Origin: a virus | DNA length: 23,496 nucleotides | IMG/VR virus record: IMGVR_UViG_3300044625_000270 | Coordinates: 1 to 23,496 of that record | Direction: 5' to 3' (one strand) | Shown: positions 2,405-21,025 of the stretch, in pieces | How positions within the stretch are numbered: position 1 is the first letter of the stretch | How the letters are laid out: each line of letters starts with the position of its first letter | Notes under the pieces: model-generated | Databases searched by the model: none | What the model saw: only the letters and a program-made list of their open reading frames with translations | What the model was told of the DNA's origin: nothing | Position numbers and translations under genes: made by a program

Positions 2405-2857
2405 TTAAGATTGGATCCATTCGTATTTCACATTAGTTTCATCAAACATACTTACAGTATTAGACCATGATTCTGTCCACATATCTGGTACTGCATCATC
2501 AGTAAATACTGTTACATTTTTAATTCCTACTTGTATGATACCCTTTGCACATTCCGAACATATAGGCAATCCGTATACGTACAATGAAGCGCCATCAAGT
2601 GACACTCCATTAAATGTTGCATTGTAGATAACATTCATTTCAGCGTGAACTACGAGACGATATTTAGTAGATCTATCGTTATATCTATCAGCTGAGTCTA
2701 GAATTCCTCGTGGAAACCCATTATAACCCTGTGCAAGAATCTGGCCTTTAGAACCTACTGCAACTGCGCCAATCTTTCTACTTGGATCTTTACTCCAAGT
2801 AGAAACTTCTTTAGCTAGCGATAGATAACGACTTTGCCAATTCTTGACGTTTGTCAT
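2405..2857 (-). CDS. cd: dCMP deaminase
   Basis: Converts dCMP to dUMP, feeding dTMP synthesis and balancing pyrimidine pools. The 150-residue protein carries the zinc-dependent cytidine/deoxycytidylate deaminase signature: H71-A-E73 (VVHAEMNVIYNA) with E73 as proton shuttle, and PICSEC with C100 and C103 as zinc ligands. The N-terminal DPSRKIGAVAVG and QGYNGFPRG are typical substrate-binding loops. It is shorter than T4 Cd (193 residues), so probably a compact deaminase without the T4 insertion. The start at 2857 follows AAGGAAGAAT and lies 47 bases inside the 3' end of the dCMP hydroxymethylase gene, so the two are translationally linked and compete for, or partition, dCMP. Confidence 0.93.
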   Translation of the reverse strand: MTNVKNWQSRYLSLAKEVSTWSKDPSRKIGAVAVGSKGQILAQGYNGFPRGILDSADRYNDRSTKYRLVVHAEMNVIYNATFNGVSLDGASLYVYGLPICSECAKGIIQVGIKNVTVFTDDAVPDMWTESWSNTVSMFDETNVKYEWIQS

Positions 2858-3575
2858 ATTCTTCCTTAGTGATACTCAATTCGCGTGTCTTAATGTAGTT
2901 ATCAACGAGATAGAATTGACGTTCATAGATATGTAACGAACCTGCATTCCAAATAATCTCGCCTCGGTCATAGAACTTTCCGCGATAGCGAAGTTCTTGC
3001 GTTACTTGTTCTAGAACATAAACTTGCCAAGCATAATCATTGCGATAACCAGCCCAAGCATCATTACTTCGCATATCAACTACTGCATGAATCCTATTAT
3101 CGCGAATTAGATATTGCACAGTGTTAGTGCACATAAAGTCTGAACGACCATTCTTATTATGATCACCCCACATAGTAGGACGTGTGTAAATCATAATAGC
3201 ACGACGAGAATCTGGACGATCTTCAAGTTCAGTTACTACATGAAGAAACTGATTATTGTTTTCACCTGAATAGATACACCATCCATAGTTTGAATTGATG
3301 TAACCTTCTTTGTCTGCCACTTGTTTCCAAATCGCCGGAGGTCCACCAGGAATATCATTTACATTTAACGACATAGACTTATACCAGTCTAGTTCTCGCT
3401 CGATGTACTCTTCATTTATTGCACCAAAGATAAAAGGAGAGTTAGCCCAGAAGCTAGCGCCTACAATTTCAAGAGTCTTTACACCAGACTTATCAGTTAC
3501 AAACTTGCCGGCTTTATAAAGTTGCGCAAATTCCTGACGAATTTCATGTACAGTTTGTTTGTGAGTGAACATCAT
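2811..3575 (-). CDS. 42: dCMP hydroxymethylase (T4 gp42-like)
   Basis: Makes 5-hydroxymethyl-dCMP from dCMP and methylene-tetrahydrofolate; a thymidylate-synthase-fold enzyme. The 254-residue protein matches T4 gp42 (246 residues) along its length: GVKTLEIVGASFWANSPFIF, DIPGGPPAIWKQVA, INSNYGWCIYS, DSRRAIMIYTRPTM and SDFMCTNTVQYLIRD. The catalytic cysteine is C149, and D180 in RNDYAWQ corresponds to the T4 Asp that selects the cytosine ring. Its first two codons are ATGATG, overlapping the TGA of the preceding gene, so the start is either 3575 or 3572. It implies that this phage replaces dC with hmdC, consistent with agt downstream. A kinase for hm-dCMP (gene 1 in T4) is not in this window. 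Confidence 0.95.
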   Translation of the reverse strand: MMFTHKQTVHEIRQEFAQLYKAGKFVTDKSGVKTLEIVGASFWANSPFIFGAINEEYIERELDWYKSMSLNVNDIPGGPPAIWKQVADKEGYINSNYGWCIYSGENNNQFLHVVTELEDRPDSRRAIMIYTRPTMWGDHNKNGRSDFMCTNTVQYLIRDNRIHAVVDMRSNDAWAGYRNDYAWQVYVLEQVTQELRYRGKFYDRGEIIWNAGSLHIYERQFYLVDNYIKTRELSITKEEYDKRQELAKSLSIAS

Positions 3576-4689: not shown

Positions 4690-4914
4690 TCAACCCTTCA
4701 GCGTGAACTTAGATAACGCAGACTGTGCTTCAATGAGTTGTTCTACATCATCGGTTTTGTCGAGAAATTCAACAGTTAGTTCCGATTTACGCATGCGCAA
4801 TAGTTCAATAGCATAGTCGATATCGTCTTCATCAGCCTGATCCATCCAGTCATCAAAGACTTCGGGACTTACGGTCAAAAGAAAGTTAAGATTATTACGA
4901 TCGTGATCATTCAT
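4690..4914 (-). CDS. small acidic hypothetical protein, first gene of the modification operon
   Basis: 74 residues, acidic and probably all helical (NLNFLLTVSPEVFDDWMDQADEDD at the N-terminus, then leucine-rich helices). Function not recognised. It is the first gene after a strong conserved promoter (4941-4969), with a predicted leader of about 20 bases and the ribosome site CTAGAGAT. Small acidic proteins expressed first from early phage promoters are often inhibitors or DNA mimics of host systems; that is only a possibility here. Confidence 0.7.
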   Translation of the reverse strand: MNDHDRNNLNFLLTVSPEVFDDWMDQADEDDIDYAIELLRMRKSELTVEFLDKTDDVEQLIEAQSALSKFTLKG

Positions 4915-4940: not shown

Positions 4941-4969
4941 ATTATATCAAATAGACGAATATTTGTACA
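4941..4969 (-). promoter_or_regulatory. conserved TGTACAAATATTCGTC promoter, copy 1
   Basis: Minus-strand -35 TGTACA (4969-4964) and -10 TATAAT (4946-4941) are separated by exactly 17 bases. The first 10 spacer bases, AATATTCGTC, are the same as in two of the other copies. A second AATATTCGT stands upstream near 4984-4976. It would drive the 74-residue gene and the whole modification operon. Confidence 0.85.
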
Positions 4970-9184: not shown

Positions 9185-9757
9185 CTATGTGTAATGCAGG
9201 TATGTTGATAGAATATATTTGTCATTGCTGATTGGCTTTCTTCCTTTATGAGGATACATCCACATAGGCGGGAATACCACCATTCTACCACACTTTGGTT
9301 TGACAAGACAATCTATTTCGAATTCAGTTTCTCCGCCTTCTTCAACATCATTTAGATAAGTAAACATTACTAGATATCTTGATGCTGATGGTCTATCTCC
9401 AACGTCTACATGCCATCCGAATTGATCGTAATCGTTATTGAAGTATCGTTTTAATCTTGCATCTTCAAATGCAAACTTTGGTGGAAAGAACTCTACACCA
9501 GTTACTTGTTTATAATGTTCGTAAACGTTTTTCATTCTTGCATAATAGTCTTCAACAAATTCTTTGAATGGCTCTTCAACAGTAATGTTAACTTCTACAA
9601 ATGATCTATAATCTTTTTCCCAACTGTATTTTGATTCTCGACGAGAATTAAAATCATTTTGTTTTTCATTGAAGACGTCAATCATCTTCTTACACGTATC
9701 TGGTTCTAATACATCATCATATACTCTAACATAATGACCTAAGCTTTTTGTATTCAT
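9185..9757 (-). CDS. 2-oxoglutarate/Fe(II) dioxygenase (prolyl 4-hydroxylase-like)
   Basis: 190 residues. The double-stranded beta-helix iron site is visible: H-x-D in FGWHVDVGDRPSASRYLVMF (about residues 111-130), the following LNDVEEGGETEFE, and the distal histidine in MYPHKGRKPISNDKYILSTYL, with the Lys/Arg that would bind 2-oxoglutarate. Such proteins are frequent in aquatic T4-like phages, but their target is unknown to me; protein hydroxylation is the usual reaction of the family. The start overlaps the gp43 stop as ATGA, tying its translation to the polymerase. Use on nucleobases is conceivable in a phage with modified DNA, but the motifs are of the prolyl-hydroxylase type, not TET/JBP. 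Confidence 0.85.
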   Translation of the reverse strand: MNTKSLGHYVRVYDDVLEPDTCKKMIDVFNEKQNDFNSRRESKYSWEKDYRSFVEVNITVEEPFKEFVEDYYARMKNVYEHYKQVTGVEFFPPKFAFEDARLKRYFNNDYDQFGWHVDVGDRPSASRYLVMFTYLNDVEEGGETEFEIDCLVKPKCGRMVVFPPMWMYPHKGRKPISNDKYILSTYLHYT

Positions 9758-12267
9758 CCAAAGAAGTCCTCTAGAGTTGCTTCCTCTTCTGCTTTCCAGC
9801 CAATAGCATTCAAAATAATCTTAGCTGGATCGAGGAATGATTTTTCAAATTGTTTATCGTTATCAATGTAACGGTGTAGTCCAAATTCGGGAGGAAGTAC
9901 TTCAGGGAATGCGATAACATCTTCGCGCATAGGATTCTTCGGATCAAGGTAAATATACTTAATCTTCTCGCCTTCCTTGATCATTTCATATGAATTTTCT
10001 AGGCTGTGTTGCTTTAATAGATTATTGTATAACAATGCAGCACGAGAATTTATTGGCGTTGACTTTTTGTAGATTGTTTTGGAATCCGCATATTGCTTGA
10101 GGGAGGATACACCACGTGGGAAAGCTTTCTCTTCGACGGGAAGACTGTCAAAGGTATTCCTAAATTCATGTATAAAGTGTTGAGTTTCAGACTCAGTACC
10201 ATTAATGAGAATCTGGAAGAGGCTCTCCATAGCTTCTCTACACGGCGCTGGTGTAGACGACTTAATGGCTTCGATGCCCATGATCTTGAGTTTAGCGTTT
10301 GCATAACGAACTCCTTCATTGTCCCATACATTAAGTATATATCGTTTCTTAGCAGTCCAGATTCCACGATCTGCAATGCCTTCACGTTTCATTCCGATTC
10401 GGTGTTTGAAAACATTAAGGTTTGTGCCAAGTTGTTTGAACGCTGCGTCGAAGACATCCGTCTCGATTTTCTTACAAACTTTGTCGAGGAAGTCAACTTT
10501 CTTTGCTGTGGTTGCGTCGGGGACGACTGCATCAACCAAGTTTGAGAAGTTTGCATAAATTGAGTCAGTATCGATTGCGATAACATAGTCTTTATTACTC
10601 TTAAGTGCTTTATTAAGATACTCGTTAATATATTTCTCGCCCCACTTAATAATCAATTGGCCAGTCAGAGTAATACCTTCTGCAATCTCCATCGTGAAGT
10701 AACGGAAGTACTTGTTGCCAAGTGCACCATAAAGCGAGTTAAGAAGAATCTTAATTGCTAGTTGTTGATTTTCGTAATGATTAATGTCACGTTCGATTCT
10801 ATAAATCTCAGCCTTATTATTCTTATCAGCTAGTTCAAGTTCTTGTTTAGCGACAAGCATCTTCTTCTTGATCGCAGAACGTTCATCATACATTTCTTCA
10901 ATGATCTTTGGCATAAAGCCTTGCTTCTGCTTTGAAAAGAATTGGCCGGTTGCAGCCATAGACTTGTCGGTGTCATTGACCAAGCCATTAAGACATCTAT
11001 CTACTGTGACACTAGGTTGAATATCACCTTTCAGAATTGTCTCGGGACTCATGTTCCATTGAACAATGATGTTAGGATATAGCGAGTTAACGTCAAAGGA
11101 ACATACCCAGTCGTGAATGCCACACTGTGGTTCTTTTACATAACCACCGTCATAGTCTCGCTTGAAGCTATCGTTATTTGGCGGAACGATAATGTTCTGC
11201 GACATAAGAGTTCTATGAATTAGAGAATCCCATATAGCAACAGTACCCATTGTGTCAGAGTAATTAACACCAGCTTTATACGCCATAGTTAGTGTGAGCG
11301 TAATCATAGCAATCTTATCTTCCATTCGGTCAACAAGATCTACGTCTTTAATGTTGTAGTCAATAAATTTCTGGTGATCAGTTTGATACAACGTATGTAG
11401 TGTTCCATCATATGCAAGTTTGCGTTCACCGAGAACTACATATGCAATGTGATCAAGACGATATGATTCTTGTGGACCAAAGGAATAACCAAACTTCATG
11501 AATAAATCCATGTAGTCTAGCTGTGCAATACCAATCAGATCATAGATTTGTACTTGGCCTTTACGCATTGATACCATACGTTCTTCAACCAATCCCCAAG
11601 GAGATAGTTTCTTGGCGTCATCTTGACCGAGCATACGATTGATTCGGTTTACAAGATATGGAATATCGAATGTGCGAATGTTCCATCCAGTGATTGCATC
11701 AGGGCAAGTGAATTCATCATGCCAAAACGCAATGAACTGCTTTAGCAGATCTTGTTCATCCTTGCATTTCGTATATCGAACCTGAGAAGTTTTCATGATA
11801 GACTTCTCAACATCATAATCGCCAAGAGCCCACACGAAGTATGTGTCGAGGATACTATCTTTAATAGCAATAGCAATTACTGGATGAAGTGCTTGGTTGG
11901 GTTCAGGGAAACCCTGATCAGACGCAACCTCAATATCAATTGTATGAACACGAATCTTATTGCGTTCAAACTTAATTTCATTGGGAAATTCTTGTGCAAT
12001 GAATTGCGCAATATAGTTCGTATTACCATAGACATTAAAGTTCTCAACGTCTGAGTATTTTTCTACAAACTCTTTTGCTTCGCGCATAGAGTCGAACTCG
12101 ATCGCATCTACATTGACACCATCGAGAGAAGTAAATTTAGAGTTGCCCTTACCCTTCACATACAGTGTAGGTTTAAAGGCAATCTTTTTCTTGATGCGAC
12201 GACCGTCTTGATATCCACGATATAGAAGGTTGTTTCCGTAGCGGTTAACTGATGTATAAAATCGCAT
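9754..12267 (-). CDS. 43: DNA polymerase, family B (T4 gp43-like)
   Basis: Replicative polymerase with proofreading. 837 residues (T4: 898). Exonuclease motifs: ExoI HTIDIE (D111, E113), ExoII GWNIRTFD (194-201), ExoIII YNIKDVDL (304-311). Polymerase motifs: A SFDVNSLYPNI (about 390-400), B KILLNSLYG (506-514), C IAIDTDSIY (D566, D568), and AKKRYIL further on. The C-terminus EEATLEDFFG looks like the clamp-binding peptide. The N-terminus (MRFYTSVNRYGNNLLYRGY) aligns with T4, so the start is sound, yet no Shine-Dalgarno sequence is visible before it. A promoter inside a hairpin lies 14-55 bases upstream. All catalytic residues that I can check are present. Confidence 0.97.
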   Translation of the reverse strand: MRFYTSVNRYGNNLLYRGYQDGRRIKKKIAFKPTLYVKGKGNSKFTSLDGVNVDAIEFDSMREAKEFVEKYSDVENFNVYGNTNYIAQFIAQEFPNEIKFERNKIRVHTIDIEVASDQGFPEPNQALHPVIAIAIKDSILDTYFVWALGDYDVEKSIMKTSQVRYTKCKDEQDLLKQFIAFWHDEFTCPDAITGWNIRTFDIPYLVNRINRMLGQDDAKKLSPWGLVEERMVSMRKGQVQIYDLIGIAQLDYMDLFMKFGYSFGPQESYRLDHIAYVVLGERKLAYDGTLHTLYQTDHQKFIDYNIKDVDLVDRMEDKIAMITLTLTMAYKAGVNYSDTMGTVAIWDSLIHRTLMSQNIIVPPNNDSFKRDYDGGYVKEPQCGIHDWVCSFDVNSLYPNIIVQWNMSPETILKGDIQPSVTVDRCLNGLVNDTDKSMAATGQFFSKQKQGFMPKIIEEMYDERSAIKKKMLVAKQELELADKNNKAEIYRIERDINHYENQQLAIKILLNSLYGALGNKYFRYFTMEIAEGITLTGQLIIKWGEKYINEYLNKALKSNKDYVIAIDTDSIYANFSNLVDAVVPDATTAKKVDFLDKVCKKIETDVFDAAFKQLGTNLNVFKHRIGMKREGIADRGIWTAKKRYILNVWDNEGVRYANAKLKIMGIEAIKSSTPAPCREAMESLFQILINGTESETQHFIHEFRNTFDSLPVEEKAFPRGVSSLKQYADSKTIYKKSTPINSRAALLYNNLLKQHSLENSYEMIKEGEKIKYIYLDPKNPMREDVIAFPEVLPPEFGLHRYIDNDKQFEKSFLDPAKIILNAIGWKAEEEATLEDFFG

Positions 12268-13528: not shown

Positions 13529-13960
13529 TTATTTCTCCATACTTAGTTTTTTGTTGCCAATATTATATTTGGCGGTTAGTGTCCAATCGGCCTTTTCCTT
13601 AAAGGATACAACCTTGATTTGCGACAAAGAAACTCGTTGTTCCGCTTTAGCCGGTACAACGATTTTTAACAATCCCCAGTCTGATAAAAGACCGGTGATA
13701 GTATTCCTACGCTCTATATCTCCACTTGTAAGGTTTGCTTCTTTACCATCAAGCGCAAACAATTCTTTAAAGTGAACGATAAAATATCTACCTTGCTTAT
13801 GCAAAATGTGGCAAGATTGATACAGTGTTTTATCTTTACGGGAAGCCACTCCGATACGAGTGAGTGTTTCACGAACCTTTAGAAAGTTATCAGGTTCTGG
13901 CAAAATCACCTCAAGCATTGAATCAGGAGTCCAATCGTAATAAATTAATTCTACAGTCAT
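13529..13960 (-). CDS. regA: RegA translational repressor
   Basis: RNA-binding protein that represses translation of phage early mRNAs by covering their start regions. 143 residues; from residue 15 on it matches T4 RegA (122 residues): PEPDNFLKVRETLTRIGVASRKDKTLYQSCHILHKQGRYFIVHFKELF, LLSDWGLLKIV, IKVVSFKEKADWTLTAKYNIGN. It carries about 14 extra N-terminal residues relative to T4 (MTVELIYYDWTPDS) and a short C-terminal extension. I chose ATG 13960 because AGAGGTAG stands before it; the in-frame GTG at 13966 lies between that site and this ATG, and the internal ATG matching the T4 start has no ribosome site. A TATAAATA sequence precedes the gene. Confidence 0.94.
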   Translation of the reverse strand: MTVELIYYDWTPDSMLEVILPEPDNFLKVRETLTRIGVASRKDKTLYQSCHILHKQGRYFIVHFKELFALDGKEANLTSGDIERRNTITGLLSDWGLLKIVVPAKAEQRVSLSQIKVVSFKEKADWTLTAKYNIGNKKLSMEK

Positions 13961-14009
13961 TTTCACTACCTCTTGTATTTATTGTCATAATATTTGCATT
14001 AGACTGTAA

Positions 14010-14017
14010 TATTTATA
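14010..14017 (-). promoter_or_regulatory. T4-type late promoter sequence upstream of regA
   Basis: Minus-strand TATAAATA in the 60-base gap between the gp62 and regA genes, followed by an AT-rich leader of about 40 bases. It matches the T4 late consensus, but regA is a middle gene in T4, so either late expression of RegA is intended or the match is chance. Confidence 0.4.
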
Positions 14018-15796: not shown

Positions 15797-16456
15797 TTAA
15801 AACTCCGAGTCAGCCTCGATTGCAACGTAGTAAGTTAGATCGGATGCGGTATGCTTGAAGCGAGAAATCTTCTTCTTCGAGATAGCTACATCGTAATCGT
15901 TAGGAAGCATCTTCAGGTTTTCAACCTTAATGTTTGCTTTAAATTCTTCAGATGTTTGACCAATGGTAACTTCATACGCATTGGATGTTGCATTTTTCTT
16001 GTCAGATACAAGAACTTTAATGTTAGTTCCATCACCAACGATTGATACATCACTTGCTTTAAGAACAGATGATGTGCGTTGAATCATTGCAAGTTGTGAT
16101 GCATCTAGTCTAAAGGTTACATCTTCACCTGGAAACTTAACAGTATTAGGTGCAGATTTTACAAGACCTTCACCGGCCGCAAAGTATTTGATCTTGCTAG
16201 TTCCACCATCAGAAACTGTGACATGCTTCTCAGAGAAGTCAAGATTCGTAGTAGGGAATAGCGATATTACATTTAGGAATTCACCTAGATCATAGATAGG
16301 AAAATCCATAGGCAGTGATTCAGCGATAGACGCCTCGGCCATTACGTTCTTGCCTTCTGAGATCGTAGCCAATTTATTTCCTTGCTTCAAAACAATGCTG
16401 CCATTGATGCTAGCAAAGTTTTTAATAAGTGCAAGTGTTTCTTTACTTAGTTCCAT
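15797..16456 (-). CDS. 45: sliding clamp (T4 gp45-like)
   Basis: Trimeric ring that gives processivity to gp43 and, in T4, couples replication to late transcription. 219 residues (T4: 228). The N-terminus MELSKETLALIKNFASINGSIVLKQGNKL and FPIYDLGEFLNVISLFP match T4 gp45 closely; the rest keeps the two-domain clamp length. The start follows AAGGAGAATATCA and lies 14 bases inside the 3' end of the diphosphohydrolase-like gene. The presence of gp45 agrees with the TATAAATA late promoter sequences seen nearby. Confidence 0.95.
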   Translation of the reverse strand: MELSKETLALIKNFASINGSIVLKQGNKLATISEGKNVMAEASIAESLPMDFPIYDLGEFLNVISLFPTTNLDFSEKHVTVSDGGTSKIKYFAAGEGLVKSAPNTVKFPGEDVTFRLDASQLAMIQRTSSVLKASDVSIVGDGTNIKVLVSDKKNATSNAYEVTIGQTSEEFKANIKVENLKMLPNDYDVAISKKKISRFKHTASDLTYYVAIEADSEF

Positions 16457-16793
16457 TGATATTCTCCTTAGAATATTTTATGTCGTGTTCGTATAAGAAA
16501 GCAAGGCAACACATAGCGTGTGCTAAGTGATGGATATTACTTTCAGGATCTATTTGCTCTCCCATTTTCCACGCCCAGATGTGTCTTTCTAGAGCGTCAA
16601 AATATCGATTAAGCGAATCAGGTACTTTCTTCCAGTTGTCTGGCTCGTATTTCTCTGCGCCGAAGGTAAGAACCTTTACCATTTCAGCTTGAGCAAGAGG
16701 AGGTATCAATCCATAACGAAGTTTACCACCGTCGAACTTACGTCCACCAGTGGTAGCATTTTGTGATTTCTTTATATCTTCTTTAGTTGCCAT
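16443..16793 (-). CDS. dATP/dGTP diphosphohydrolase-like protein (DUF5664/MazZ-like)
   Basis: 116 residues of the all-alpha family: GRKFDGGKLRYGLIPPLAQAEMVKVLTFGAEKY (about 17-49), NWKKVPDSLNRYFDALERHIWAWKMGEQIDPESNIHHLAHAMCCLAFLYEH. The conserved E/D residues (ALERH, GEQIDPES, H-x-x-HA) are those of the MazG-like metal site. Relatives hydrolyse purine deoxynucleotides to monophosphates. Its promoter is the hairpin-embedded one at 16823-16851. Co-transcription with gp45 suggests dNTP pool control during replication. Ribosome site weak (GGTGA). Substrate not determined. Confidence 0.8.
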   Translation of the reverse strand: MATKEDIKKSQNATTGGRKFDGGKLRYGLIPPLAQAEMVKVLTFGAEKYEPDNWKKVPDSLNRYFDALERHIWAWKMGEQIDPESNIHHLAHAMCCLAFLYEHDIKYSKENINGTK

Positions 16794-16807
16794 AATTCAC
16801 CAATAAA

Positions 16808-16841
16808 AGAGGGCTCAGATTGATTATAACCTGAGCCCTCT
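16808..16841 (-). terminator. strong intrinsic terminator enclosing a promoter -10
   Basis: Minus strand: AGAGGGCTCAG, 12-base loop, CTGAGCCCTCT, then TTTTATT: a perfect 11-bp GC-rich stem with a U tract, placed after the HTH gene. The loop contains TATAAT, used by the overlapping promoter, so upstream transcription ends where a new transcript begins. Confidence 0.8.
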
Positions 16842-16851
16842 CCTAAGTACA
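16823..16851 (-). promoter_or_regulatory. promoter of the diphosphohydrolase-gp45 operon, inside a terminator
   Basis: The -35 TGTACT (16851-16846) and -10 TATAAT (16828-16823) have a 17-base spacer. This is the same -35/-10/spacer layout as at gene 43. The left arm of the terminator stem lies in the spacer and the -10 is in the loop. Predicted leader about 23 bases. Confidence 0.7.
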
Positions 16852-16857
16852 AATCAA

Positions 16858-17103
16858 TTAAGCAAACAAGCCGAGCGAGTGTGCTACTTGAATCATGGTC
16901 TTGGTAGGACGACCAACTGCGTACTTGGTAGTACGTTCGCCAGTAGTGAGAGTGGCGCGGTTTGCATAAACGCAAACACCTTTGCTACGCAATGCATGAA
17001 TAGCAGCGGTAGGATTAGCGATGCCAAACATACCAGTGATCTGGCGGGGAGTGGCGGTGGAACCTGAATTCAGGTATTTTTCAAGACGTGCAAGTTTAGA
17101 CAT
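16858..17103 (-). CDS. small helix-turn-helix DNA-binding protein
   Basis: 81 residues. A winged-helix-type fold is suggested: ARLEKYLNSGSTATPRQITGMFGIANPTAAIHALRSKGVCVYANRA has a helix, a T-x-x-QI-x-x-x-FG turn, a recognition helix (NPTAAIHALRS) and a beta wing (VCVYANRATLTTGERTTKYAVG). Similar small HTH proteins occur in T4-like phages. Ribosome site GGAGATATT. The gene is isolated between two intrinsic terminators (17138-17166 upstream, 16808-16841 downstream), so it should have its own promoter, which I cannot place surely; a CGTC-N7-TATATC near 17132-17116 resembles the -10 half of the conserved promoters. A regulator of the phage promoter family is a fair guess. Confidence 0.8.
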   Translation of the reverse strand: MSKLARLEKYLNSGSTATPRQITGMFGIANPTAAIHALRSKGVCVYANRATLTTGERTTKYAVGRPTKTMIQVAHSLGLFA

Positions 17104-17137
17104 AATATCTCCATGATATAACCATCAGACGAAAAAA

Positions 17138-17166
17138 GAAGTGCAGCGATGGCTAAGCCGCACTCC
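17138..17166 (-). terminator. intrinsic terminator after the adaptor gene
   Basis: Minus strand GGAGTGCGGC, 9-base loop, GCTGCACTTC (10 pairs including two G-T wobbles), followed directly by TTTTTT. It lies 19 bases after the stop of the adaptor gene and ends that short transcription unit. Confidence 0.8.
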
Positions 17167-17184
17167 TAGGAATGACTTAATTGC

Positions 17185-17538
17185 TTAAGCTGTTTCTATA
17201 ATACCATAGTCTTTAAGGTTTGTAAAAAATTCTTTTTCTTCTTCGTCAACTTTTACGCTAGGAGCAGAGACTTTAGATTTAGAAGTAGTCTTTGCCGGAG
17301 CAGTATCAAGTTTAGGAGCAGGGAATTGATACACGCCACGAGAGATCTTGTCACCTTTGACAAGCCACATAGGGTAACCAATTTTGGATCCACCATTTGC
17401 ACGCTCTGCATGCAATTTGAAGAAGAGTTGTTCAACTTCTGTGCGAGTGATGGTAGCCTGAGATTCTAGCTTAGGATTAAGCTCGATGAAGGCATCAATA
17501 CAACGCTTTTGAGTTTTGTTAAGATCAGAGTAGTTCAT
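17185..17538 (-). CDS. stand-alone copy of the CobS-like N-terminal domain (putative adaptor)
   Basis: 117 residues from ATG 17538, chosen because AAGGAAATTTATT precedes it; an in-frame start 39 bases upstream has no such site and would crowd the promoter. Residues about 10-70 repeat the N-terminal domain of the adjacent AAA+ protein: IDAFIELNPKLESQATITRTEV ... YPMWLVKGDKISRGVYQFP here against INALVEAHPDVGSTGTVSRAQI ... YPMWIMENKVSRGLYAIP there. The rest is an Ala/Lys/Ser-rich linker and a short acidic C-terminal helix (EEEKEFFTNLKDYGI). It has its own conserved promoter and a terminator. I infer a domain duplication giving a free adaptor or competitor for the AAA+/VWA complex. The molecular role of the domain is unknown to me. 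Confidence 0.78.
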   Translation of the reverse strand: MNYSDLNKTQKRCIDAFIELNPKLESQATITRTEVEQLFFKLHAERANGGSKIGYPMWLVKGDKISRGVYQFPAPKLDTAPAKTTSKSKVSAPSVKVDEEEKEFFTNLKDYGIIETA

Positions 17539-17568
17539 AATAAATTTCCTTACGGGTTTCAAAATAAT

Positions 17569-17597
17569 ATTATACAATATTCACGAATATTTGTACA
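17569..17597 (-). promoter_or_regulatory. conserved TGTACAAATATTCGT promoter, copy 2
   Basis: The -35 TGTACA (17597-17592), a 17-base spacer beginning AATATTCGT, and -10 TATAAT (17574-17569). Here the block continues as AATATTCGTGAATATT, an inverted repeat. Drives the adaptor gene with a leader of about 24 bases. Confidence 0.85.
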
Positions 17598-17600
17598 GGG

Positions 17601-18704
17601 TTAGAATGGAATTTCTTCCGTTGCTGAAGGCGCTTGAGCTTCTACTTCAACTGCTTCAGGAGTGGTTACCTTTTCAAACAGATCAGCGAAGGCATTTCTA
17701 GTTATATCGTCAAATCGATTAATACACAACTCGATCGCTTTCTTCTTATCTTTGAAGATTGAGAAGGCACGTACGATATGCACTAATCGACGAGTGGTAA
17801 TGGTTTCATCCACACCACCATCTGCAAAGGTCCTACGGATTGCATCAGCCCATTTAACTAGGTTGTTTGCAAACTCCTCGTCTTCACATGAGTAGGACTT
17901 CATTAGATTCATGACAATTTTCTTTTCAACCATAGCTGATGGATAGTCTTGATTGAAAGTGATTGCAAATCGCTCAAGGAATGCTTCGTTCAAAACGTTG
18001 GTACCAATGTATCGTCCATCGTCCGAACCCTTACCTTTAGTGTTTGCAGTTGCGAACACAGTGAATCCAGCTGCGGGATACACGAGCTCATTCTTAAGCT
18101 TGAAGTAGTAGGGTTTACCTTCAAGAACTGGTTGCAAACACAGCAGAGTGTTTGCAGAGCCTGCATCAATTTCATCAAGCAGAAGGGGAATACCCATACG
18201 CATTGCGATTAGAACTGGACCTTCGACAATCTGAACGTTACCATCAACCAAAGTCTTAGAACCAATGAGTTGATCTTCGTCAGTCATCATATTCAAGTTG
18301 ACTCGAATGAGTGGAACTTTATTCTTAGCGCAACACTGTTCGACAGTCGTTGACTTGCCGTTGCCAGTAGGACCACTAATGTATGCGGGATAAAATTGAC
18401 GTGACTTAATAATAGTGTCAATGTCTTTATGATTACCAAAGGGAACGTAATTAGTATCTACCTTCGGCACAAGTGATGTGTCTTTTTCGACTGTGGTTGA
18501 TTGCATTGTTTCTTCTACCGTTACAGCATTACCGCCTGGGATTGCATAAAGACCGCGACTGACTTTATTCTCCATAATCCACATAGGGTATTTAGTCGTG
18601 CCAAGTCGTTGCATCACATCAAGAATCTGAGCTCGAGAAACGGTGCCGGTTGAACCGACATCAGGATGAGCTTCAACCAAGGCATTAATAAAATTTTGAT
18701 CCAT
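17601..18704 (-). CDS. cobS: MoxR/CobS-type AAA+ ATPase
   Basis: 367 residues. An N-terminal domain (about 1-57) is shared with the next gene, then a linker, then an AAA+ core: Walker A GPTGNGKST (111-119), Walker B LLLDEID (174-180), sensor 1 FATAN (217-221), arginine-finger region NEAFLERF (239-246), and a helical lid ending in a Pro/Glu-rich tail. This is the form annotated as CobS (cobaltochelatase subunit) in many aquatic T4-like phages. MoxR-type AAA+ proteins work as motors for VWA partners, and the VWA gene lies just upstream here with the same promoter type. No CobN-like metal-chelatase subunit is seen in the window, so a protein- or metal-remodelling motor is as likely as cobalamin synthesis. 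Ribosome site GGAG ten bases before ATG. Confidence 0.88.
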   Translation of the reverse strand: MDQNFINALVEAHPDVGSTGTVSRAQILDVMQRLGTTKYPMWIMENKVSRGLYAIPGGNAVTVEETMQSTTVEKDTSLVPKVDTNYVPFGNHKDIDTIIKSRQFYPAYISGPTGNGKSTTVEQCCAKNKVPLIRVNLNMMTDEDQLIGSKTLVDGNVQIVEGPVLIAMRMGIPLLLDEIDAGSANTLLCLQPVLEGKPYYFKLKNELVYPAAGFTVFATANTKGKGSDDGRYIGTNVLNEAFLERFAITFNQDYPSAMVEKKIVMNLMKSYSCEDEEFANNLVKWADAIRRTFADGGVDETITTRRLVHIVRAFSIFKDKKKAIELCINRFDDITRNAFADLFEKVTTPEAVEVEAQAPSATEEIPF

Positions 18705-18737
18705 AATATAGGTACTCCATCAAGTTGTTGTATATCT

Positions 18738-18766
18738 ATTGTATCTAATAGACGAATATTTGTACA
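18738..18766 (-). promoter_or_regulatory. conserved TGTACAAATATTCGTC promoter, copy 3
   Basis: The -35 TGTACA (18766-18761), 17-base spacer beginning AATATTCGTC, -10 TACAAT (18743-18738). A perfect 10-bp inverted repeat AATAGACGAA / TTCGTCTATT encloses the -35 (about 18779-18747). Drives the AAA+ gene with a leader of about 27 bases. Confidence 0.85.
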
Positions 18767-18805
18767 TACTTCGTCTATTATTTTTTGAATACTTTTGTTT
18801 TAAGC
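18751..18805. repeat. 55-bp direct repeat, copy A (stop codon through promoter)
   Basis: This stretch, from the last codons of the VWA gene to the promoter core of the AAA+ gene, reappears at 20971-21025. The outer 16 and 24 bases are identical (GACGAATATTTGTACA on one side, TTTTTGAATACTTTTGTTTT with the following AAGC on the other); only the middle differs. Confidence 0.85.
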
Positions 18806-20932
18806 CACCATGCCGATGAACTTATTGAGCACTACCCGTGAAGTCTTACGACTGTTGAACACTTTGCCTAGCGCCTTAGACATCTGAGAAGATGACATTG
18901 CCGTATTCACAGAATCAAGGTTGCTATCTTCAATTCTAGCTTTAGAATTCAGAAGATAGTACTCATCGCGTCCTGCAACATTGTCGAGAATACAATACTT
19001 TTGTTTTCTCAGAGATGAGGTGATCTTCTCCATCATAGCATATACGCTATTTCCATCAGTGCATATATTCGACATGTTGTGTCGAACAAAGTTGTTTGCT
19101 GATCGAGTAGTTGACGTCATAATGAAGAACCCGATATTACTCGTGTTGTATCTATCTTTAATGACGTTAAGCAGAACAGAAGTTTGTTGTTGACCATCAT
19201 CGCTAAAGTCATAATCTTTCTTAGTGATGGGATCACGCATATAACTTTTCACATTGATTTTACGTGCTAAACCCTGCTTATCATATCTCCAAGAGCTTCC
19301 ATTGCTGATTCTCTTTTCGTTAGAATAGAGTGCACCGCTTTCGCCATCAGTAAGTGTAATGAACGACATCTTTTCGACTGCATTATTCTTAATGAACTTG
19401 CCAATGTAATCAACCATAAACAATAGTGATTCATTCAGTGGTGTGCCATTTAGTCCATAGTTAGGAACACTGTATGGACGAGACATAAGAACATCAATCA
19501 TCTTGTTGAATTCGCTAGTTGACATTTTATTCGAGAAAAATTCAAGCAGAGTAAATCTATTTCCGTTACCAATTCCACCTTCAACATGAGAACTTGCAGG
19601 CTGATCATAGGAATTGTACCTATCGCCATATCCATCCGTGAAGGCAAACACTTGGTAAGGAATTTGAATTCGCTGACAGAACATAGCAAGGTTGATAACT
19701 TGCTCAATAGTTTCTTCAATATAATCAAACATTGAACCAGACCAATCGAGCAAAAAGATCATGCCGTGTTTCTTTCCATCTTTCACTTGCATGATTTGAC
19801 GGAATAGATCATCTTTCAGTTTGTATGCATAAAGTTTACGACTATCGAGTTGACCGAGCTTAGCGATCTTAGCCCTCTTCATAGAAGAGGCAGACTTACG
19901 CATTTCAAATTCTTTGACTAAATAACTAACAACAGGAGAGTTAGTAGTCTTAAACTTAAGAGACTTTTCTTTGTTGAAGCAACTCTTATAATCGCTAATC
20001 TCTTTGATAATACGCTTGTAATCTACAATAGGATTTGTGCTTTCGTTGAATTCAAAGCGTGGTGTGAAGTATTGAATCTCGAGATCTTCATCAGCAAATT
20101 GATTCAGAGTTTCTTCAAACTTGTTTGCCGTCACCGACTCAAGTTGAGTTTCATCGTCTTCTTCTTTTTGTGGAGAATAACCAGTGCGAGTAGCTTTAGG
20201 CTTTTCTTTAGCTTCTTCTTCATAAGAATCTACATCATCGCTATCTTGAGTATCCCACTCATCGATGTCGTCCATGTCATATTCATCACCATCTTCATAG
20301 CCACTATCTTCCTCGTCGTCTAACTCTTGTTGAAGTTCTTGACGCATGGTCTGACTTAGCTTTTTCTTTTCTTCATGACTAGCTTTACTGTACTCATAGA
20401 TTTCTTCGGCTAGTTTGATAACGTCGTCTTCGGTGTTACATAGATCTACACGACGAAGGAACAGTTGTTCTTCAGAAGTAAACTTTACGCCACAGTTAAA
20501 TCCTACTTTGTAGTAGAGATTAATGCGATCAATAAGCAGAAGTTGTGATAGATCACGGGTTTTGACACCAAAGAAGTCTCGTTCGTTAAGTTCACGGTAG
20601 CCAATATTAAACGACTTACGTGAACCTGGATAACGTTCTTTCATTTTCTTTTCAATGCGAACGTCTTCAATAACGTTGGCGTATGTCTTAAGGTGTTTCT
20701 TTGTATCGAATACAACACCATATGCTTCCTGACCAGTGAAGAGTGCATGACCTACTTCATGTAGCATGAGCATTTCTTCAACAGTAGAACTCATCTCCTT
20801 CCAGCGAGGGAGGATCAATCGACGATTAAGAATGTCGAACATAGCAGTACGAACTCGACCACGTACAACATCGATGTTCTCTGTGGCTAGCAGACGAGCT
20901 AGCATATCTTGTGATTGGGATTGGATGTCCAT
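18800..20932 (-). CDS. CobT-like protein with HExxH and von Willebrand A domains
   Basis: 710 residues, the largest accessory protein here. An N-terminal metallopeptidase-like region has H58-E-V-G-H62 (LHEVGHALFTG) and a possible third ligand in NVIEDVRIE (about 88-95). A helical part and a strongly acidic segment follow (about 206-244, Asp/Glu rich). The C-terminal VWA domain has a complete MIDAS: D397-W-S399-G-S401, T498 in NGTPL, D530 in LTDGESG. The layout matches CobT-like partners of MoxR/CobS AAA+ motors, whose gene is next. The HExxH may bind zinc as an active protease or only structurally. It lies downstream of gp46 with its own conserved promoter; ribosome site GGAAAGG. Target unknown. 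Confidence 0.88.
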   Translation of the reverse strand: MDIQSQSQDMLARLLATENIDVVRGRVRTAMFDILNRRLILPRWKEMSSTVEEMLMLHEVGHALFTGQEAYGVVFDTKKHLKTYANVIEDVRIEKKMKERYPGSRKSFNIGYRELNERDFFGVKTRDLSQLLLIDRINLYYKVGFNCGVKFTSEEQLFLRRVDLCNTEDDVIKLAEEIYEYSKASHEEKKKLSQTMRQELQQELDDEEDSGYEDGDEYDMDDIDEWDTQDSDDVDSYEEEAKEKPKATRTGYSPQKEEDDETQLESVTANKFEETLNQFADEDLEIQYFTPRFEFNESTNPIVDYKRIIKEISDYKSCFNKEKSLKFKTTNSPVVSYLVKEFEMRKSASSMKRAKIAKLGQLDSRKLYAYKLKDDLFRQIMQVKDGKKHGMIFLLDWSGSMFDYIEETIEQVINLAMFCQRIQIPYQVFAFTDGYGDRYNSYDQPASSHVEGGIGNGNRFTLLEFFSNKMSTSEFNKMIDVLMSRPYSVPNYGLNGTPLNESLLFMVDYIGKFIKNNAVEKMSFITLTDGESGALYSNEKRISNGSSWRYDKQGLARKINVKSYMRDPITKKDYDFSDDGQQQTSVLLNVIKDRYNTSNIGFFIMTSTTRSANNFVRHNMSNICTDGNSVYAMMEKITSSLRKQKYCILDNVAGRDEYYLLNSKARIEDSNLDSVNTAMSSSQMSKALGKVFNSRKTSRVVLNKFIGMVA

Positions 20933-20957: not shown

Positions 20958-20986
20958 ATTCTATCTATAAGACGAATATTTGTACA
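20958..20986 (-). promoter_or_regulatory. conserved TGTACAAATATTCGTC promoter, copy 4
   Basis: The -35 TGTACA (20986-20981), 17-base spacer beginning AATATTCGTC, -10 TAGAAT (20963-20958). Drives the VWA protein gene with a leader of about 19 bases. Confidence 0.85.
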
Positions 20987-21025
20987 GGACTTCTATTATT
21001 CTTTTTGAATACTTTTGTTTTAAGC
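20971..21025. repeat. 55-bp direct repeat, copy B (stop codon through promoter)
   Basis: Second copy of the repeat at 18751-18805, running from the gp46 stop region to the promoter core of the VWA gene. It includes the shared TTTTTGAATACTTTTGTTTT tract read through the stop codon. The inverted repeat around the -35 seen in copy A is degraded here. Confidence 0.85.

Follow-up and report, generated by a model that had tools for sequence, protein, structure and literature searches.

A MoxR-type AAA+ ATPase, a VWA protein with a HExxH motif and a free adaptor in a T4-like phage: a possible protein-remodelling module among the replication genes

We analysed a 23,496-base fragment of a T4-like phage (IMG/VR record IMGVR_UViG_3300044625_000270; the whole stretch is called the window below) with nearly all of its genes on the minus strand. 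Three minus-strand genes within positions 17185-20932 encode a protein with a von Willebrand factor A (VWA) domain and an N-terminal HExxH domain, an AAA+ ATPase of the MoxR/CobS type and a short protein that we refer to as the free adaptor. We propose that the AAA and VWA proteins form a remodelling, perhaps cleaving, machine tied to phage replication or recombination, with an adaptor that would either target it or compete with it, and we give this reading a probability of about one half. Complex formation, peptidase activity, the target and the role of the adaptor are all predicted from sequence. That the pair belongs to a protein-remodelling machine rather than to a chelatase is quite likely. 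An earlier note on this DNA had described a motor with a VWA and a metallopeptidase-like domain and a separate adaptor, and gene content, motifs and homology agree with this composition. It had also taken the system to be possibly undescribed, which does not hold for the AAA and VWA genes, as these correspond to PHROG 249 and PHROG 459, a core pair of T4-like cyanophages (PMC8651126, PMC7824862). The free adaptor looks like the only new part of the system in our comparisons.

The AAA/VWA pair and its relatives

Conservation of the VWA protein was counted over 15 sequences comprising the window and its relatives. The zinc motif H58-E59-x-x-H62 and the stretch E89-D90-x-R92-x-E94 (EDVRIE, residues 89-94) were invariant in all 15. 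The same was true for D396-x-S398-x-S400 and D529 of the metal ion-dependent adhesion site (MIDAS), and T497 was nearly invariant. A complete MIDAS together with HEVGH, as claimed before for this CobT-like protein, was thus confirmed. HEVGH is also kept in S-PM2, HTVC008M, S-SSM7, P-SSM7 and AG-345-L05 and reads HESAH in vB_OspM_OC. A low-depth AlphaFold2 (AF2) model of the protein showed a VWA fold that matches NorD and other VWA domains, and a PDB sequence search returned no match. Moreover, a scan of genome contigs for cellular relatives of the VWA protein gave 20 loci with 23-46% identity, many of them on short metagenome-bin contigs that are possibly phage DNA and therefore uninformative on a cellular origin.

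The AAA protein matched Pfam AAA_5 (4e-13) and CbbQ_C (7e-6). Its closest solved single-chain, full-length relative is CobS (9ujv, E 5e-36); among the solved structures that it matches, CobS is outscored by midasin, which has several AAA repeats, and NorQ and CbbQ match by profile as well. An AAA_5-type motor thus adjoins a VWA protein with an intact MIDAS, which is the arrangement of a MoxR AAA+-VWA pair. NorQ-NorD, CbbQ-CbbO and RavA-ViaA, whose known clients are cellular enzymes, follow the same motor-plus-VWA logic, and the NorD VWA domain ranks with the best matches by structure. CobNST (TIGR01651/TIGR01650) likewise combines AAA+ and VWA partners, and its CobS is related to the phage AAA protein; the phage side differs in lacking CobN, in carrying HExxH and in scoring far under the family cut-offs.

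The pair itself is well known from phages. A tblastn search over 50,697 phage records found the AAA gene in 592 and the VWA gene in 463, mostly in cyanomyoviruses and annotated as 'CobS' and 'peptidase'. Liu et al. 2021 reported that cobST is widespread in tailed viruses with cobT usually misannotated as a peptidase, and proposed that phage cobST hijacks the CobN of the host (PMC8651126). For jumbo phages, Iyer et al. 2021 described paired MoxR and vWA proteins with a metallopeptidase domain at the N-terminus and proposed a role in virion assembly (PMC7824862). By its description, the pair of their group 2.2 phages agrees with ours in domain architecture and in how the genes are paired; their account differs in favouring virion assembly and, in the passage considered, says nothing of a separate adaptor. 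The S-PM2 genes (S-PM2p122/123) resemble those of the window in number, order, position between gp46 and gp45, HEVGH, ED(A/V)RIE and MIDAS motifs. In contrast, this core pair of S-PM2 and the T4-like cyanophages has an unrelated AAA N-terminal domain and lacks both the EIPF tail and the free adaptor. The peptidase-CobS genes of HTVC008M (I899_gp107/108) also represent the same pair, and here the N-terminal domain of CobS shows homology to the adaptor as well as to the AAA N-terminal domain of the window; HTVC008M differs by the absence of an EIPF tail and of an adaptor gene, the latter in a tblastn search of the phage collection with two adaptor queries.

More distant pairs were found outside the T4-like phages. 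In E. coli phage PhiR41_1 and an SSU5-like phage-plasmid a VWA gene with HEVAH is followed by an AAA gene and then by dnaE, and on an IncC plasmid the AAA gene and a VWA gene with HEAAH flank ssb-bet-exo. An Acinetobacter plasmid carries a CobT-AAA pair near dnaE without HExxH. The HExxH domain of the T4-like VWA protein aligned to the phage-plasmid proteins with an hhalign probability of 98% and to the IncC protein with 95%. The SSU5-like and IncC pairs share with the window a homologous HExxH domain, a nearby AAA gene and replication or recombination neighbours. They differ in that no adaptor was seen, and in the SSU5-like phage-plasmid the AAA protein has an N-terminal zinc-finger-like segment (CxxC) and the VWA domain is nearer to true CobT (hhalign 99.8%; Pfam CobT 3e-35). 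Judged by these neighbourhoods, the pair appears to go with modules of replication and recombination in several mobile elements that are unrelated to one another. Since the phage-plasmid protein bridges the T4-like HExxH domain and the VWA domain of true CobT, the comparison suggests that the chelatase CobT is a branch that lost HExxH.

The free adaptor and the C-terminal tail of the motor

The small protein had been regarded as the N-terminal domain of the motor and nothing else. A copy of this domain is indeed present, with 30% identity to the AAA N-terminus over 61 amino acids (BLAST E 2e-9) and an hhalign probability of 96.8% over 64 columns. The restriction to this domain did not stand, as the domain is followed by a linker that varies and a C-terminal segment that is conserved (EFxxELxxxGI). 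The listed open reading frame begins at TTG 17577 and the relatives align from ATG 17538 (MNYSDL...), so that the gene likely spans 17185-17538 and encodes 117 amino acids. No match was found for the adaptor in Pfam, PHROG or NCBIfam, nor in a PDB sequence search. Residues 1-80 were modelled by AF2 with a predicted local distance difference test (pLDDT) score of about 77-92 and the element order H-E-H-H-E-E. In the viral library BFVD better matches were obtained with this model, including an uncharacterized 136-amino acid phage protein (E 1e-6); phage AAA and PD_CobS proteins matched with a probability of 0.84-0.87 at an E of only 0.03-0.05.

Thirty-six IMG/VR contigs encode the adaptor. In all 32 contigs that hold both genes, the window included, it shares the strand of the AAA gene and lies directly 3' of it at a distance of 9-204 nt, and the same winged helix-turn-helix gene follows wherever the contig covers that part. 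Four contigs (L046-L049) have an adaptor-like gene and no AAA gene in the part covered. S-PM2 and marine virus AG-345-L05 are without adaptor. The 50,697 phage records yielded none in tblastn searches that used the adaptor of the window at E 0.01 and a divergent adaptor at E 1, and seven of the genomes from the scan for cellular VWA relatives gave one weak partial match. The N-terminal domain of HTVC008M CobS, which carries it in fused form, aligned to the AAA N-terminal domain and to the adaptor with hhalign probabilities of 93-94%, whereas that of cyanophage CobS is unrelated in sequence (0.5%). Because the domain occurs fused in HTVC008M, it is by this comparison older than the free adaptor.

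The AAA protein of the window ends in EIPF. This tail resembles the C-terminus DDDIPF of the bacterial single-stranded DNA-binding protein (SSB), whose tip serves many genome-maintenance proteins as a binding site (PMC5872125, PMC7145534). EIPF was found in 19 of the 27 AAA C-termini of the clade, a count that comes from related contigs and does not represent 19 independent events, and EIAF or EVPF in three more. Among 422 complete open reading frames of two long relatives, G001 and G003, the AAA protein is the only one ending in [ILV]PF. Its tail may tether the motor to SSB-binding proteins of the host, a binding that we infer from the likeness to SSB.

Promoters and gene neighbourhood

All three genes were said to have the same promoter type, and this was seen in the form of TGTACAAATATTCGT, 8 nt and TAnAAT (-35 TGTACA, 17-bp spacer), which constitutes a 29-nt repeat in three copies (Table 1). 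In relatives the promoter type recurs, with the -35 element drifting to TTTACA and, only in distant relatives, to TTGACA. Promoters of gene classes were surveyed in G001 and G003 (167 and 169 kb). In both, uvsY, gp55 and CobS have a sigma70-like promoter upstream, as do the VWA gene in G003 and uvsX and gp45 in G001. Only 1 of 17 structural genes matched this promoter type, and did so weakly; the late motif TATAAATA occurs at a few of these genes. No exact TATAAATA late promoter was found at the three genes, and its count in the window is at chance level. The promoter type is common to the pair and the replication genes in G001 and G003 and rare at structural genes; therefore, the pair is probably transcribed early or in the middle of infection along with the replication genes. 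The shared promoters noted before hold up as an early type. The genes are not named in the main text of the cyanophage and pelagiphage transcriptome papers, so that expression timing is read here from the promoters alone.

A fourth exact TGTACAAATATTCGT copy with TATAAT at the same spacing is located at 4941-4969, upstream of an unknown gene of 74 amino acids (4690-4914). One TATAAATA copy lies at 14010-14017, 44 nt upstream of the regA open reading frame start at 13966 (window 13529-14017), and regA of G003 is preceded by a copy too.

Table 1. Genes, motifs and promoters of the locus (positions in the window)
Feature	Position	Strand	Details
Sigma70-like promoter, VWA gene	20958..20986	-	TGTACA, 17 bp, TAGAAT
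VWA protein with N-terminal HExxH metallopeptidase-like domain, 710 aa	18800..20932	-	PHROG 459 'peptidase', E 4.1e-173, most of protein covered; phage 'CobT'
HEVGH motif, H58-E59-x-x-H62	20747..20761	-	Invariant in 15 sequences
MIDAS DWSGS, residues 396-400	19733..19747	-	T497 at 19442-19444, D529 at 19346-19348
Sigma70-like promoter, AAA gene	18738..18766	-	TGTACA, 17 bp, TACAAT
MoxR/CobS-type AAA+ ATPase, 367 aa	17601..18704	-	PHROG 249 'CobS', E 1.3e-103, most of protein covered
AAA N-terminal domain, about residues 1-60	18525..18704	-	Homologous to the free adaptor
Walker A GPTGNGKS, residues 111-118	18351..18374	-	Motif of the AAA protein
EIPF-COOH tail of the AAA protein	17604..17615	-	Resembles bacterial SSB tail DDDIPF; follows variable linker
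Sigma70-like promoter, adaptor gene	17569..17597	-	TGTACA, 17 bp, TATAAT
Free adaptor, 117 aa	17185..17538	-	Copy of the AAA N-domain followed by a disordered linker and a conserved C-terminal segment
Small winged helix-turn-helix protein, 81 aa	16858..17103	-	PHROG 4973; weak Pfam HTH_39; directly after the adaptor in relatives that cover the region

The gene order of the window is gp47, gp46, VWA protein, AAA protein, adaptor and the small winged helix-turn-helix protein, followed by a dATP/dGTP pyrophosphohydrolase domain, gp45, gp44, gp62, regA, gp43, UvsX and gp41. In the clade of the window the pair is placed between gp46 and gp45/gp44, and the same placement was found in S-PM2, HTVC008M, vB_OspM_OC, S-SSM7 and P-SSM7. 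The synteny of the three genes across relatives is strict. This context points to a replication or recombination target more than to a generic host protein.

Several further observations were made on the locus and its surroundings. An exact 24-nt repeat (18782-18805 and 21002-21025) covers the stop codons of the VWA gene and gp46; it sits just before the next promoter and is absent ahead of the adaptor. DNA-modification-type genes are encoded at 628-1848, 2405-2857, 2811-3575 and 9185-9757 and comprise a DNA alpha-glucosyltransferase (Pfam AGT 5e-92), a dCMP deaminase, a thymidylate synthase and a PHROG match to a 2-oxoglutarate-Fe(II) oxygenase. Judging from this set, it is possible that the phage DNA is hypermodified and glucosylated. 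The polymerase gp43 (9754-12267) ends in EEATLEDFFG. In contig L047 (2-1537, 4332-5630) the corresponding end is EEQSSLESFFA, and a different L047 protein of 432 amino acids ends in EKSSLESFFG; this may be a clamp-binding tail common with the polymerase. The gp45 gene at L019:2495-3169 and the gp44 gene at L037:3212-4130 appear as broken fragments, through assembly errors or inserts.

Competing explanations and implications

In the proposed machine the AAA ring would hydrolyse ATP, a substrate gripped by the VWA/MIDAS domain would be coupled to this ring, and the HExxH domain would perhaps clip what is gripped. The substrate would most likely be a protein or nucleoprotein complex of phage replication or recombination, or a host factor encountered there. 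The winged-helix-like N-terminal domain would position the motor. The free adaptor, which combines this domain with a different C-terminal peptide, might bring other clients or compete with the motor for one docking site, and in the clade of the window the SSB-like tail could add a tether to host SSB-binding proteins. We consider the link of the machine to replication evenly balanced and hold the view that the adaptor brings or blocks clients somewhat more tentatively.

Several points weigh against this proposal. Neighbourhood and promoter class are no proof of a target, and T4-like phages pack many unrelated genes into the gp46-gp45 region. For the third zinc ligand, E89, D90 and E94 are all invariant and stand at the level of candidates. 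Peptidase activity would not be universal among the pairs, since HExxH was lost in the Acinetobacter pair. A PDB fold search with the adaptor model gave nothing below E 0.48, and the winged-helix reading of the model is based on the order of its elements only. Moreover, the EIPF tail is absent from L003, L041-L044 and the cyanophages examined and therefore cannot be essential to the basic mechanism.

A role of the pair in cobalamin synthesis, in which phage CobS and CobT would join the host CobN or a ChlH-like subunit and boost cobalamin for DNA synthesis, was proposed by Liu et al. 2021 and corresponds to the usual reading of cyanophage 'cobS' as an auxiliary gene. The fact that many prokaryotes keep cobN without cobST (PMC8651126) and the closeness of the AAA protein to the solved CobS would fit this proposal. 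Nevertheless, the AAA protein reached 105.4 bits against TIGR01650 CobS, where the equivalog cut-off is 558.55 bits. The VWA protein had no match to Pfam CobT, CobT_C or TIGR01651 and aligned weakly to true CobT (hhalign 21%), and HExxH occurred in none of 15 true CobTs. The earlier note had found no chelatase large subunit in the window and a cobalamin role unsupported; both statements were borne out. We detected no CobN in the 23.5-kb fragment and none in nine long relatives, using a search that works on controls. CobN is present in two of the 50,697 phage records, neither from organism groups with the VWA gene, and in none of the 463 VWA-bearing records. A CobN, nearly full-length and 48% identical to a bacterial one, lies at 16274-19957 of OQ572414.1 (Pseudomonas phage Y13, 67 kb) and is possibly host DNA in a phage record. 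In addition, the relatives carry NrdA and NrdB, a class I ribonucleotide reductase that is independent of B12, and distant pairs reside in E. coli elements, yet an E. coli control genome has no CobN. As to NrdA itself, it is short (about 600 amino acids) in G001-G005 and G007 with a gap between profile positions of about 337 and 374, and the G004 copy is divided over about 660 nt containing stops, which may reflect an intron or homing insert. On the evidence above, a role as a chelatase is unlikely, and the auxiliary form proposed for it appears improbable.

Two other explanations accept a remodelling machine and assign it a different task. As a virion-assembly chaperone, the MoxR-VWA pair would assist in forming the head or tail, with structural proteins trimmed by its metallopeptidase domain. 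The same architecture was linked to this role in jumbo phages by analogy with Acidianus two-tailed virus (Iyer et al. 2021, PMC7824862). We consider this role unlikely, as the genes lie in the replication cluster behind sigma70-like rather than TATAAATA late promoters and the long relatives already have the T4-type prohead protease gp21; besides, the pair occurs on IncC conjugative plasmids, which make no virions. The machine could also, in line with a suggestion of the earlier note, unfold or cleave a host protein early in infection, for example one of defence or of the nucleoid, with the adaptor choosing the target. Such a takeover or counter-defence would be in line with the sigma70-like promoters, the conserved HExxH, the confinement of the adaptor to one uncultured clade and a tail that could dock on host SSB-binding proteins. 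However, nothing indicates a target, and the synteny of the pair in Synechococcus, Prochlorococcus, Pelagibacter and Ochrobactrum phages is more core-like than expected for a host-specific weapon; hence we regard this explanation as unlikely, too. A machine coupled to replication or recombination remains our preferred reading.

What makes the system interesting is the adaptor, the EIPF tail and the evidence that speaks against B12 as the widely used explanation. As a rule, surveys of ocean viruses list cobS among the auxiliary genes for vitamin B12, and the gene serves as a marker of myo-cyanophages (PMC9983427, PMC7029224). The label 'CobS/CobT' of the T4-like pair is probably a misnomer. A wider account, which we offer as doubtful, would see in phage 'CobS/CobT' a widespread AAA+ unfoldase-metallopeptidase of phages and plasmids that is coupled to replication and recombination and is no B12 accessory; the chelatase CobT would have lost HExxH, and one uncultured T4-like clade would have gained a free targeting adaptor and an SSB-mimicking tail. 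The free adaptor would provide a natural handle on the recognition target of the motor, and the more distant version of the pair in E. coli K-12 phages opens the question to experiments in a laboratory strain. Should phage CobST instead remodel or cleave proteins at the replication fork, ecological inferences based on B12 would be wrong, and a gene pair that is among the most conserved unexplained ones of T4-like phages would gain a testable function.

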